A DNA stretch of 64,000 bases from an uncultured Oscillospiraceae bacterium (GTDB taxonomy: Bacteria; Bacillota; Clostridia; Oscillospirales; Oscillospiraceae). Made by a program: the position numbers and the translations under genes. Of this stretch, positions 42,354-45,633 are shown one piece after another. The notes under the pieces were generated by a model. It did no database searches. It saw only the letters and a program-made list of their open reading frames with translations, and was not told where the DNA came from. Each line of letters starts with the position of its first letter. The first letter of the stretch is position 1. The stretch is from contig CALWOA010000011.1 of the NCBI GenBank assembly GCA_944382965.1, positions 21,214 to 85,213 on the forward strand. The letters are read 5' to 3'.

Positions 42354-42944
42354 TTACTTGAAGTAACGCTCCAGCAGGCCCTTCAGTGCCTTGCCGTGGC
42401 GAGCCTCGTCACGAGCCATCTCGTGAACGGTGTCGTGGATAGCATCCAAGCCGTTCTTCTTAGCGCAGGCAGCCAGATCGAACTTGCCCTGGGTTGCGCC
42501 GAACTCGCAGTCAACGCGCCATGCCAGGTTGTCCTTGGTGGTAGCCTTCATGTTGGGCTCCAGGTCAGCGCCCAGCAGCTCAGCGAACTTGGCAGCGTGC
42601 TCAGCCTCTTCGTAGGCAGCCTTCTCCCAGTACAGGCCGATTTCGGGGTAGCCTTCCCGATGGGCGATACGAGCCATGCACAGGTACATGCCCACTTCGG
42701 AGCACTCGCCGTTGAAGTTGGCCATCAGCTGCTCGAAGATGAACTTCTTGTCCTCTTCGGAGATGTCGGGGTTGTTCTTCACGGTCTTGGCGTAGATGCC
42801 GTACTCGTGCTCAGCAGCCAGCTTGTCGGTCTCCATGACCTTGAACTTGGAGCCGTCAACCTTGCAGACGGGGCACTTGAAGCCTTCGGGGATGCTTTCG
42901 CCTTCGTAAACGTAACCACAGACGGGGCAGACAAACTTCTTCAT
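42354..42944 (-). CDS. Rubrerythrin with N-terminal rubredoxin domain
   Basis: A 196-residue reverse-type rubrerythrin. Residues 1-35 are a rubredoxin domain (CPVCGYVY and CPVCKVDG), followed by a ferritin-like diiron four-helix domain with ExxH motifs (EEAEHAAKF and EARHGKAL). It reduces hydrogen peroxide in anaerobes, taking electrons through the rubredoxin site. The ATG at 42944 has GGAGG ahead. Codon use is strongly biased, suggesting high expression. PerR is encoded just upstream on the same strand, matching peroxide control. Confidence 0.95.
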
Positions 42945-42990
42945 ACTTGTTTCCTCCAATAATAATGTAATTTTTGATTTTTCAGGGATT

Positions 42991-43383
42991 TCAGGAATTT
43001 GCGCAGCTGCCGCACAGACCGGTAAAGGTCAGTTGGCAGCCCTGGACCCGACAGCCGGCGTATTTTTCCGTGTCAGTTTCCAGAGAATGGGGAACTGCGA
43101 TCTGGGGCAGATCGATGACCGCACTGCAGCCGGTGCAGACAAAGTGGACATGGGGCGCTGTGTTTGCATCAAAGCGCTCGATGCCGTTGACCGTACCCAG
43201 GCTTTGAATCATGCCCTGGCTTTTGAACCAGGCCAGATTCCGGTACACCGTGGCAAGAGAAATGTCCGGATGGGTCTTCTGAAGCATTTCGTGGACCATC
43301 TCCGCCGAGGGGTGTGCGTGGGTTTGCTGCAGGCAGGCGAGAATGGCGTTGCGTTTGCGGAACTGCTTGGTAGATCCTTCCAT
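42991..43383 (-). CDS. perR: Fur-family peroxide-type repressor
   Basis: A 130-residue Fur-family regulator. The N-terminal winged helix includes [27 protein letters not shown]; the metal site includes HVHFVCTGC and a second C-x(2)-C near the end (GLCGSC), forming the structural zinc site. Its position directly upstream of rubrerythrin argues for PerR, not Fur. The ATG at 43383 has AGGAGG ahead, and a TTGACA-17-TATACT promoter lies further upstream. A Fur/PerR-box-like sequence at 43469-43483 suggests autoregulation. Confidence 0.88.
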
Positions 43384-43431
43384 AGACACCTCCTGTCGTC
43401 TGATTTGTGATTGATTCTTATTTACGAGATG

Positions 43432-43460
43432 AGTATAGCATGTCCATTGCACTTTGTCAA
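43432..43460 (-). promoter_or_regulatory. perR-rubrerythrin promoter
   Basis: On the minus strand TTGACA (43455-43460) and TATACT (43432-43437) have a 17-base spacer. Confidence 0.85.
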
Positions 43461-43493: not shown

Positions 43494-43528
43494 AAAAAAA
43501 TTTCCGGGCAGATTTCTCCGCCCGGAAA
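43494..43528 (-). terminator. Terminator of the CooT operon
   Basis: A 9-bp stem (43501-43509 with 43520-43528) with a 10-base loop, followed on the minus strand by seven T, ten bases past the cooT stop. Confidence 0.9.
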
Positions 43529-43537
43529 GGATCTCAA

Positions 43538-43732
43538 TTATACAGCCGCCTCTTTCACAACGGCTACACCGTCCACCAGGTTTGCCATTTCCAGAGTACC
43601 CTCAATGGCCATCTGGCGCTCCATCAGATCGGTGAGGATGACCATGCCGTCCTTGCACTCAATGCGCATAACGTTGCGCATCATCACCGTCTCAGGGGTC
43701 AGACTGTTTTTATATACGGTAGAAAGACACAT
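43538..43732 (-). CDS. cooT: CooT-family nickel-binding protein
   Basis: A 64-residue protein of the CooT family. CooT of Rhodospirillum rubrum is a small dimer that binds nickel through Cys2. Here the N-terminus MCLSTVYKN keeps the conserved MC and Y, and the beta-rich core NVMRIECKDGMVILTDLMER and GTLEMANLVDGVAVV match the family. It is 15 bases downstream of a His-rich protein gene and shares its promoter. No CO dehydrogenase genes are in the window, so which nickel enzyme it serves is open. Confidence 0.85.
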   Translation of the reverse strand: MCLSTVYKNSLTPETVMMRNVMRIECKDGMVILTDLMERQMAIEGTLEMANLVDGVAVVKEAAV

Positions 43733-43747
43733 AGCATTATCCCTCGC

Positions 43748-44194
43748 TTACTTGACGTCCAGGCTGCTCAGAACCACGCTCAGACGCATATTGCCCTTTT
43801 CAAAATCAGACACCGCAGCCATGACCTGCTCATAGGCCACATGATTGCCGGCATCTTCCAGCTTGCCTGCCAGATCCGCCAGTTCCTTGGCATGGGCGGC
43901 GTTGTGGCCCACCATGTATTTCATCAGAGCCATCAGCTCTTCCATGGGGGTATGCTCGCAGCTGCCCTGGCAGCCGGCGCACTGACCTTCGCAGCCATGG
44001 GAATGGTCGTGGGGATGGGCATGATCGTGCAGATGGTCGTGGTCATGGGGGTGTACATGGTCATGCTCATGGATGTGGGCATGAGGATGGGTATGGGCAA
44101 CACCGTTATGGGTGTGCTCGTGGGTGTGTTCATGGGTATGAGGATGCTCGTGCTGAGGAGCACCGCCGGCAATGTGATCTTCGTGGATGTGCAT
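43748..44194 (-). CDS. His-rich metal-binding protein with Cys cluster and helical domain
   Basis: A 148-residue protein with three parts. Residues 1-66 hold 28 histidines in alternating H-x-H runs; residues 67-80 form a Cys cluster (CEGQCAGCQGSC); residues about 82-148 form a helical domain (EELMALMKYMVGHNAAHAKELADL). It is likely a nickel or cobalt store or chaperone. It shares a TTGACA-17-TATAAT promoter with cooT and is divergent from a CsoR/InrS-like repressor that also has a His-rich N-terminus. No signal peptide is seen, so it is cytoplasmic. The helical domain is of a family I cannot name with certainty. Confidence 0.85.
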   Translation of the reverse strand: MHIHEDHIAGGAPQHEHPHTHEHTHEHTHNGVAHTHPHAHIHEHDHVHPHDHDHLHDHAHPHDHSHGCEGQCAGCQGSCEHTPMEELMALMKYMVGHNAAHAKELADLAGKLEDAGNHVAYEQVMAAVSDFEKGNMRLSVVLSSLDVK

Positions 44195-44220
44195 TGCAAT
44201 TCCTCCTTTGTTTTTTTTCT

Positions 44221-44249
44221 ATTATACTCTTTTGCCCCGGTTCTGTCAA
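44221..44249 (-). promoter_or_regulatory. Promoter of the His-rich/cooT operon
   Basis: On the minus strand TTGACA (44244-44249), 17 bases, TATAAT (44221-44226): full consensus, about 25 bases before the start codon. Confidence 0.9.
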
Positions 44250-44272
44250 AGTATTTATTTTCCGGGAAATAT

Positions 44273-44283
44273 CCCCGGTGGGG
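44273..44283. promoter_or_regulatory. Candidate CsoR-type operator (C4/G4 inverted tract)
   Basis: CCCC-GGT-GGGG sits between the two divergent promoters, directly upstream of the repressor gene's -35. CsoR/RcnR-family repressors bind G/C-tract inverted repeats of this sort, so it could control both sides. Confidence 0.45.
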
Positions 44284-44284
44284 C

Positions 44285-44313
44285 TTGCCAAAAGGGGAAA
44301 ATCCGGGTATAAT
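44285..44313 (+). promoter_or_regulatory. Promoter of the CsoR/InrS-like gene
   Basis: TTGCCA (44285-44290) and TATAAT (44308-44313) with a 17-base spacer, 35 bases before the start codon. Confidence 0.75.
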
Positions 44314-44347
44314 AACCAAGAAAATTGTCAGAAAGCAGGTGGTGTTC

Positions 44348-44686
44348 ATGTCCGATCATCACGAGCATGCCCATATGGATCATGAATATCTCCATGCCCA
44401 CGGCATTGCCCATTCCCACAACCATGTCCATGAAAATCAGAAGGCAGTGATCAACCGGCTGTCCCGGGCCATTGGCCATCTGGAGAAAGTCAAGCGGATG
44501 GTGGAGGAGGGGCATGACTGCTCGGAAGTGCTGATCCAGCTGGCGGCGGTGCGCTCGGCTCTGGACAATACCGGCAAGGTGATTCTCAAAGACCACATGC
44601 GCCACTGCATGGTGGATGCCGTGGCCGCCGGAGACCAGGACGCCATTGACGACCTGTGCCAGGCCATTGACAAATTTATGAAGTAA
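44348..44686 (+). CDS. CsoR/InrS-like metal-sensing repressor with His-rich N-terminus
   Basis: A 112-residue member of the CsoR/RcnR/FrmR family. The N-terminal 28 residues hold nine or more histidines (MSDHHEHAHMDHEYLHAH). The core helices start at RLSRAIGHLEKVKRMVEEGHDC. Ligand positions Cys58, His83 and Cys87 are spaced 25 and 4 apart, exactly as in CsoR (36, 61, 65) and the nickel sensor InrS (53, 78, 82); InrS also uses an N-terminal His. A longer frame opens far upstream antisense to the His-rich gene, but AGGTGG before 44348 marks the start. It is expected to repress the divergent His-rich/cooT operon. Confidence 0.85.
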   Translation: MSDHHEHAHMDHEYLHAHGIAHSHNHVHENQKAVINRLSRAIGHLEKVKRMVEEGHDCSEVLIQLAAVRSALDNTGKVILKDHMRHCMVDAVAAGDQDAIDDLCQAIDKFMK

Positions 44687-44752
44687 AGCGGGCGCTTTTG
44701 GGGCATTCCGCAAGCATAAGAACAAGGAAACAGATGGGTGTTTGACAGAATA

Positions 44753-44777
44753 AAAGGTGGGCATTGCCCACCTTTTT
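44753..44777 (+). terminator. Terminator after the CsoR/InrS-like gene
   Basis: A 10-bp stem (44753-44762 with 44766-44775) and a 3-base loop, with TTTTT at its end. Confidence 0.85.
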
Positions 44778-44887: not shown

Positions 44888-45493
44888 TCAAAACTGTTCC
44901 GTGCGGGTGCGTTGGCTTAAGTAATGGGGGCGACCGTCTTCGGGGTACAGATAACTGCTGAATTGCTGAGGGCCAACCGACAGAAGCATCTGCAGGTCAT
45001 CCCGTGTGAGCAAAACAGCCTGCAAACATATGCAGGTGCGGAAAGGGCTCAATTTGCAGCGAAGCATGCCCACATCTTCGATAATTTGAGGAAATTCCAG
45101 AAAAGCGCCCACAATACTTTCCGCTTCTTCTGGCTCCCATTCCATGCTGTGCCCGTAAGACACCGGTATTTGCGTTGCCATGGAATAGGTGGCAATCATC
45201 AGAAGCTTCTCACGATACCAAGACAGCGTGTCCGGATCTCTGAGATTCTCCTGGTCGGAAATAAACATCATATATTCGTTGCGGTTTCCCAATGTTTGCT
45301 TGGCTTTTGGCATTTTGTAGTCGCTGGCACCCATCGTAACCAATTTCCAAAAGGGGAATTTGCCGTTGGGCGGATACACCAGCACATCGATGTGCACGGT
45401 GGTGTCTTCCGTGGGATGGAGAATGGTACAATCCGATTGCTGAAAATACTTATCGCAATGGGCGGTAAATATATTCATTTCTCTTATATTCAT
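44888..45493 (-). CDS. SUFU (suppressor of fused) domain protein
   Basis: A 201-residue protein resembling the SUFU domain family: an early VHIDVLVYPP segment, then FWKLVTMGASDYKMP, EYMMFIS, and a late acidic turn before LLTRDDLQMLLS. In bacteria this domain is best known in immunity proteins of polymorphic toxin systems, also as free-standing orphans. No toxin gene is in the window. The ATG at 45493 follows AGAGGA. Base composition is more AT-rich than in the flanking genes, and it abuts a tRNA gene, which suggests acquisition. Confidence 0.75.
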   Translation of the reverse strand: MNIREMNIFTAHCDKYFQQSDCTILHPTEDTTVHIDVLVYPPNGKFPFWKLVTMGASDYKMPKAKQTLGNRNEYMMFISDQENLRDPDTLSWYREKLLMIATYSMATQIPVSYGHSMEWEPEEAESIVGAFLEFPQIIEDVGMLRCKLSPFRTCICLQAVLLTRDDLQMLLSVGPQQFSSYLYPEDGRPHYLSQRTRTEQF

Positions 45494-45633
45494 AAAATCC
45501 TCTCCATTCGGTGTGTACACTGTAACTATACCATAGATAAACAGGGAAAACAATGATAAATATACGATGCTGCCTTATGACAATGGTATCATTGGTTCGT
45601 TTGCCCGCACCGTTCCCTTCTATTGAGGACAAG

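Follow-up and report, generated by a model that had tools for sequence, protein, structure and literature searches.

A CooT and His-Rich Protein Gene Pair beside a Divergent InrS-like Repressor: A Probable Nickel Unit for the CODH/ACS Enzymes of an Uncultured Oscillospiraceae Bacterium

Introduction

The nickel supply of acetyl-CoA synthase (ACS) is, to our knowledge, only partly known. AcsF has a role in ACS maturation, and the Wood–Ljungdahl pathway also needs a corrinoid protein. CooJ carries in its helical domain the motif H-W/F-x2-H-x3-H, which we take to be its nickel site.

One closely similar described system is the CooT/CooJ pair of Rhodospirillum rubrum (cooCTJ). As stated in PMC6006190, R. 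rubrum CooT binds nickel as a dimer, and the same source reviews the presence of CooT and CooJ in CO dehydrogenase (CODH) operons. A survey ties the clade E CODH operons that contain CooT and CooJ to one-carbon metabolism (PMC13056359), and cable bacteria are described as having CooC, CooT and CooJ alongside CODH/ACS (PMC11247825).

A second system is the hp/nbp pair of Clostridium autoethanogenum (CAETHG_1604/1605), i.e., neighboring genes for a His-rich and a CooT-family protein in a Wood–Ljungdahl organism. According to PMC10230548, strains lacking either hp or nbp grew more slowly in rich medium and contained less AcsB; in minimal medium their growth was unaffected, and the nbp mutant did not respond to nickel supplementation there. 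In that account the two genes have a growth phenotype and an unassigned function. The pair adjoins a C1 gene cluster, and the available text names no repressor for it.

The third system is a regulator. InrS regulates expression of an exporter in a cyanobacterium (PMC4235346). As given in the same source, the ligands of the copper sensor CsoR are Cys36, His61 and Cys65, a spacing of 25 and 4, and a sensor with Tyr just ahead of the first Cys is predicted to respond to copper.

Here, we describe a locus with similarities to these systems. Judged against the papers searched, a similar gene pair is already described, and the new parts are a fusion to AcsB and an InrS-like repressor. No report of a CsoR/InrS-type regulator of such gene pairs was found in the literature searched, and no small nickel donor protein for ACS was found there either.

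The Locus

The window is the whole stretch of DNA that was analysed, 64,000 nucleotides in length. The features considered below are the following.

43538–43732, minus strand: cooT, 64 aa, CooT family (PF10133), Cys2 present
43748–44194, minus strand: His-rich gene, 148 aa, with a His tail, a Cys4 cluster and a C-terminal helical hairpin
44348–44686, plus strand: CsoR/RcnR-family repressor gene, InrS-like, 112 aa, PF02583
44221–44249, minus strand: promoter of the His-rich gene and cooT, TTGACA-17-TATAAT, 12/12 consensus bases
44285–44313, plus strand: repressor promoter, TTGCCA-17-TATAAT, 11/12 consensus bases
43501–43528, minus strand: terminator-like hairpin 3′ of cooT, 12-pair stem and T run
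44752–44776, plus strand: terminator-like hairpin 3′ of the repressor gene, 11-pair stem and T run
44244–44288, no strand assigned: conserved operator-like block, TGTCAAA..ATTTATTT...ATCCCC-N3/4-GGGGCTTGC, spanning from −35 box to −35 box

The divergent start codons of the His-rich gene and the repressor gene are separated by a control region of 153 bases (44195–44347), in which CCCC-GGT-GGGG lies at 44273–44283. The gap between the His-rich gene and cooT is 15 bases; thus, the two are very likely carried on one transcript. A promoter scan of the region returned three such sites where 1.5 are expected, so that the promoter match alone is little proof. In relatives, the −35 and −10 boxes of the His-rich gene are kept, as are the TTGC and TATAAT of the repressor promoter. 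An earlier, sequence-only reading had described this layout as a three-gene module, with cooT and the His-rich gene under one consensus promoter, a divergent CsoR-family gene, and about 150 bases containing CCCC-GGT-GGGG between the promoters. All of this holds; its description of a 28-His protein does not, as the protein has 32 His, 28 being the count for the first 80 residues.

Relatives of the locus were sought with the hairpin as the query, because the CooT alignments are too variable for that use. The listed relatives referred to below are 80 of 150 confirmed places in named records; they are mostly Oscillospiraceae, including Candidatus Faecousia, the scan having reached the window's own kin only. 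cooT shares a stretch with the His-rich gene in all 80 and lies within 200 bases of it in 79. This regularity, together with the conservation of the operator-like block, is more than chance would give. For named acetogens the distribution is taken from PMC10230548; the other homologues come from the genomes searched here.

Two neighborhoods flank the unit. A PerR/Fur-like gene and a rubrerythrin gene lie 3′ of cooT (42354–43452), and the same order is seen in 12 of the 80 listed relatives. They were considered as members of the unit and excluded, because the terminator intervenes and they have a promoter-like site of their own. Downstream of the repressor gene, 44888–45553 on the minus strand encodes a SUFU (suppressor of fused) domain protein (PF05076, 48.8 bits).

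CooT and the His-Rich Protein

The CooT assignment is based on a match to PF10133 at 63.4 bits (curated cut-off 27) that covers positions 1–59 of 60. The protein starts MCLSTVY and has Cys2, the nickel-ligand position. M1, C2 and L3 are invariant in alignment A1 (16 sequences, the window included); alignment A2, picked for its start residues, is left out of the Cys2 evidence.

The His-rich protein matches no Pfam family above cut-off and no NCBIfam entry. Its N-terminal tail is followed by a Cys4 cluster, C68-x3-C72-x2-C75-x3-C79, the spacing of which is present in 74 of the 80 listed relatives. An AlphaFold model built from 45 aligned sequences has helices at 83–115 and 118–146, with a pLDDT of 94–98 over residues 91–140; two strands modeled in the His tail reach 76–80 only, and the remaining tail is lower. 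Foldseek gave no match at an E value of 0.001 or better. Neither the 45 sequences nor a more diverse set of 20 show any change at H97, N98 or H101 of the hairpin; in the 16 widest hairpin rows, H97 and H101 are the only ones of these three that stay invariant. Thus, the core feature of the hairpin is a helical i/i+4 His pair, H-x3-H.

Comparison with CooJ

Like CooJ, the His-rich protein is the partner of a CooT-family protein and has a helical H-x3-H. The differences are several. The His tail is C-terminal in CooJ, as stated in PMC6006190, and N-terminal here; the matched CooJ chain reads HFxxHxxxH, whereas the window's hairpin reads Y-M-x2-H-x3-H, with Tyr-Met replacing His-aromatic, and so departs from the CooJ motif; and the Cys4 cluster is a further difference. 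H-W-x2-H-x3-H is found in 6 of the 16 rows of alignment A6, which holds the wider homologues, and the HW-type rows are linked to the window's family at 97.6% (profile A4 against A7).

Profile A6 covers most of the CooJ chain 6hk5 and puts the same His residues in register, but only at an E value of 0.065; three matches rank above 6hk5 in that search, namely two designed proteins and a synthetic fusion-inhibitor peptide. Pairwise probability against 6hk5 is 50% with A6 and 1.3% with A4, and profile A7 does not reach 6hk5 at an E value of 1. With such an E value behind designed proteins and with narrower profiles that give no support, we call the protein CooJ-like in its presumed mode of action and do not file it as CooJ; homology of the two proteins is only suggestive at the sequence level.

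The Repressor

The repressor matches PF02583 (CsoR/RcnR, DUF156) at 97.6 bits (cut-off 22.8). Against chains of known structure, InrS (5fmn) scores 83.7 bits and chains named CsoR score at most 47.3; 6ahx, named “putative cytosolic protein”, scores 88.4, above InrS. Thirty-five repressor sequences were compared (the window, 31 adjacent to the pair and 3 others), and H24, H26, H28, D57, C58, H83, H86 and C87 are invariant in all of them.

C58, H83 and C87 align with Cys53, His78 and Cys82 of InrS. The sequence-only reading had taken this 25 and 4 spacing as InrS-like, and the residues are indeed as it stated. Taken alone, the spacing is no pointer to nickel, since it is common to CsoR. InrS has a position A without Tyr and acidic positions B and C, the latter two placed here by the InrS alignment. 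Position A is Asp57 (35/35) and position B is Asp102 (34/35), while position C, Glu95 in InrS, is Ala99 (35/35). To summarize, the repressor resembles InrS of Synechocystis in its C-H-C ligands, in a His tail, one His of which aligns with His21, and in the absence of the copper-type Tyr. It differs at position C and in an extra Cys, C104, which is present in 34 of the 35 sequences; InrS has a Lys at the aligned position, and C104 may bind the metal as an additional ligand. The targets differ as well: InrS represses the exporter gene nrsD, and the presumed target of the window's repressor is the CooT/His-rich pair. A second CsoR, which is tail-less, is encoded elsewhere in the window's genome (C53).

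The Control Region

Among the 80 listed relatives, 31 have the repressor gene next to the pair in divergent orientation and 3 have it elsewhere; it is missing from the stretch in 43, and in 3 the stretch is too short to tell. The same divergent, adjacent arrangement is found in 11 of 45 genomes of the wider family, and in one more a gene intervenes; upstream sequence is shorter than 900 bases in four of the stretches examined. Neither of the two other genomes of the same genus in our draw (G049 and G135) has the repressor beside the pair. Given roughly two CsoR genes per 2 Mb, we estimate that chance would bring about adjacency in well under 1% of genomes. A quick tree of hairpin and CooT, built without a shuffled control, has at least eight switches of adjacency among its 75 rows; thus, the repressor looks like an attachable part. 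The sequence-only reading had staked its module on co-occurrence across genomes, and co-occurrence is what we find, because the pair recurs in the relatives and in the wider family, the repressor accompanying it to the extent just given. At one locus (L129, 9122–10034), the repressor gene, the His-rich gene and cooT all point in one direction.

An alignment of 25 control regions, from the window and 24 of the 31 adjacent loci (7 were dropped for start-codon or length problems), keeps TGTCAAA..ATTTATTT......aaatATCCCCc....GGGcTTGC between diverged flanks. The C-tract core beside the repressor's −35 box is present in 31/31 loci with an adjacent repressor, 30 of them with the stricter form, and in 0/46 loci without. 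Because this core touches the repressor promoter, a second element was counted separately. ATTT[AC]TT, which stands beside the pair's −35 box and within 22 bases of its GTCAA, is found in 28/31 loci with and 0/46 without an adjacent repressor, whereas the GTCAA itself is retained in 35 of those 46.

A search of the window's genome for the block returned a perfect match only at the locus itself. Three sites have at most 3 mismatches, and only the window's site lies between promoters; the other two, with 2 and 3 mismatches, lie immediately 3′ of a GntR-like gene and where a peptidase-like gene begins (both named by eye) and were not counted as operators. In 12 control regions of the wider family, C-tract/G-tract pairs were found in 4 under a loose definition (3.4 expected) and in 2 under a strict one (0.3 expected). 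This palindrome is not clearly above chance in the wider family, and the clear footprint is confined to the closer 31 loci.

Co-occurrence with ACS and CODH

We searched 150 genomes of the window's family, its own included, for the hairpin part, CooT, CODH and ACS. The hairpin is matched in 45, CooT in 47, CODH in 48 (44 above the family cut-off) and ACS in 48. CooT is present in all 45 genomes with the His-rich protein. ACS is present in 40 of these 45 versus 8 of the 105 others, and CODH in 36 versus 12, in both cases with kinship ignored. Two CooT genomes that lack a hairpin match (G006 and G105) have a diverged hairpin beside CooT in a more sensitive search; both are among the eight ACS genomes without a His-rich match. 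The pair occurs without a CODH or ACS match in G003, G036 and G080, which are at least 97% complete, and in G142, which is 67% complete. Across 291 genomes of the class, the hairpin is found in 13 and CooT in 31, all 13 hairpin genomes being among the CooT ones (kinship ignored), and hairpin and CooT lie at most 500 bases apart in 9 of the 13, with the window's genome counted. Many of the 48 ACS genomes of the family have two AcsB matches, often on different contigs, and the pair often lies in the same stretch as one of them.

Elsewhere in the genome of this gut bacterium, contig 9 holds consecutive genes for CODH, a CooC-like ATPase and AcsB, and contig 40 has those for CbiM, CbiN and CbiQ. 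Thus, the view that the unit comes without CO dehydrogenase and without a transporter is true of the neighborhood only. What survives of the nickel (or cobalt) storage and sensing unit that had been proposed is a metal unit with a dedicated repressor, nickel being the likeliest metal; the absence of enzyme and transporter is local, and the pair tracks ACS across genomes.

Neighborhoods and the AcsB Fusion

Within the family, the gene order His-rich, CooT, CooC-like, ..., ACS is frequent. Among 56 neighborhood stretches (L043–L098, some of which are second hairpin copies), the hairpin shares the stretch with ACS in 21 and with a CooC-like gene, of the CooC/AcsF ATPases, in 33. No such ATPase gene adjoins the window's pair, and neither ACS nor CODH lies in the stretch around it or in those of 79 of the 80 listed relatives. 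In the exception (L145), the distance between ACS and the pair is 7.8 kb, and the separation is therefore not absolute. The separation is also a difference from hp/nbp, as, on the available text, is the repressor. The likeness of the window's pair to hp is one of description, and homology is suggested by homologues in C1 clusters. Thus, the earlier view that this is not a described system stands for the InrS-like repressor, of which no report was found in the papers searched; the pair fits the description of hp/nbp in PMC10230548 and resembles CooT/CooJ.

A link to AcsB is also seen in another family of the class (f58), of which 40 genomes were searched. At five loci (L194, L195, L216, L217 and L220), the His-rich gene adjoins AcsB in a neighborhood that also has CODH, a CooC-type gene or both. 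It follows AcsB in L194, is upstream of one AcsB in L195 and is flanked by two AcsB copies in L216 and L217; the order in L220 is CODH-CooC-AcsB-His-rich-CooT-DUF3842. In one of the 40 genomes (L196, 8197–11040, minus strand), a single reading frame encodes the His tail and hairpin joined to a complete AcsB, a protein of 947 aa in which Pfam finds three ACS/CODH families; a second, separate AcsB adjoins. Four further fusion candidates (G442, G443, G444 and G445) proved on inspection to be separate genes.

Other arrangements of the hairpin were seen. The hairpin domain occurs alone, as proteins of 72–75 aa with HWxxH and no His tail, in L216 (7166–7390), L217 (1186–1404), L219 (349–570) and L220 (9129–9356), where it sits in C1 clusters, preceded by CooT and a DUF3842-type gene. 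Another type of His-rich hairpin gene has no adjoining CooT (L073, 3728–4427; L095, 8148–8917; L096, 4202–4989), and a CsoR-type gene follows it directly 3′ on the same strand. In L084 (7424–8546), what appears by eye to be a corrinoid-protein gene lies between the His-rich gene and the repressor, beside CODH and ACS.

A Proposed Function and Its Alternatives

We suggest that the unit is a CooT/CooJ-like nickel buffer and donor for ACS/CODH that is derepressed by nickel, a reading to which we give a probability of roughly 0.58. The pair would serve the Wood–Ljungdahl enzymes of the same cell, and in the window's genome it probably serves the nickel of CODH/ACS enzymes while standing apart from their genes. 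By analogy with Rhodospirillum CooT, the window's CooT would be a nickel-binding dimer held by Cys2. The His tail of the CooJ-like protein would buffer many metal ions, and the H-x3-H hairpin, together with the Cys4 cluster in the window's clade, would hold an ion or hand it on, the recipient probably being a CooC/AcsF-type ATPase and ACS. The InrS-like repressor is proposed to sit on the conserved block between both promoters and to come off once C58/H83/C87 are occupied by nickel; both buffer and repressor would then be made under plentiful nickel. The sequences themselves show the gene content, the pairing, the tie to ACS across genomes, the single AcsB fusion and a block that goes with the adjacent repressor, and the hp and nbp deletions in C. 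autoethanogenum are a precedent; the identity of the metal, repressor binding at the block, its relief by metal and delivery to ACS are inferred. A narrower form of this proposal, which we hold tentatively and think somewhat doubtful, makes the His-rich hairpin protein, which travels with AcsB and is joined to it in one genome, a dedicated nickel donor for ACS; among the Oscillospiraceae related to the window, Candidatus Faecousia included, it would have turned into a free-standing nickel reserve under InrS-like control, with a repressor that uses C104.

Several observations count against the nickel buffer and donor reading. The pair occurs in the four genomes without CODH/ACS noted above, and eight ACS genomes have no His-rich match. 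The adjacent repressor is missing in both genomes of the same genus and at most listed loci, and the fusion is found in one genome. Part of the block coincides with the repressor promoter, the C-tract/G-tract site of the wider family is hardly above chance, and in L145 the pair is not far from ACS. As reported in PMC10230548, hp and nbp deletions left growth in minimal medium unchanged, where added nickel did nothing for the nbp mutant, and the InrS Glu95 is replaced by Ala99 in the alignment.

Some of these points suit a unit for nickel (or cobalt) detoxification or storage, in which the repressor senses excess and the His-rich protein soaks up metal with no special tie to ACS/CODH. The 32 His fit bulk binding, the acs genes lie away from the pair in the window's genome and are missing from the stretches of 79 of 80 listed relatives, three nearly complete genomes have the pair with no CODH/ACS match, and the described target of InrS is an exporter gene (PMC4235346). 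We consider this unlikely in view of the co-occurrence with ACS and CooT, the AcsB neighborhoods in another family and the AcsB fusion. A cobalt unit feeding corrinoid synthesis for the same pathway would answer the pathway's need for a corrinoid protein and would be in keeping with CbiM, CbiN and CbiQ in the window's genome and with the corrinoid-protein gene in L084. We rate it very unlikely: CooT is a nickel protein where tested, as stated in PMC6006190, and the fusion partner in L196 is AcsB, a nickel enzyme, and no corrinoid protein.

The remaining alternatives concern the repressor. If it were an ordinary CsoR or CstR, the unit would respond to copper or persulfide, as its C-H-C ligands at CsoR spacing would allow. 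This is highly improbable, as Asp stands in place of the Tyr before C58 in 35/35 sequences, InrS scores far above chains named CsoR, the unit is without a copper gene, and the genome has its second, tail-less CsoR. The repressor might instead regulate only itself, its adjacency to the pair being a chance neighborhood. The block touches the repressor's −35 box, making part of it the repressor's own promoter, and the repeated switching of adjacency, counted without a shuffled control, points the same way. We find this distinctly unlikely, given the divergent and adjacent repressor in 11/45 family genomes and 31/80 listed relatives and, beside the pair's own −35 box, an ATTT[AC]TT that tracks the repressor (28/31 vs. 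0/46).

Implications

Taken together, fusion to AcsB in one genome, co-occurrence with ACS and a hairpin with H-x3-H point to a concrete and testable role for hp/nbp-type proteins. The InrS-like repressor and its footprint would, in turn, serve as a reporter of nickel status in gut acetogens.
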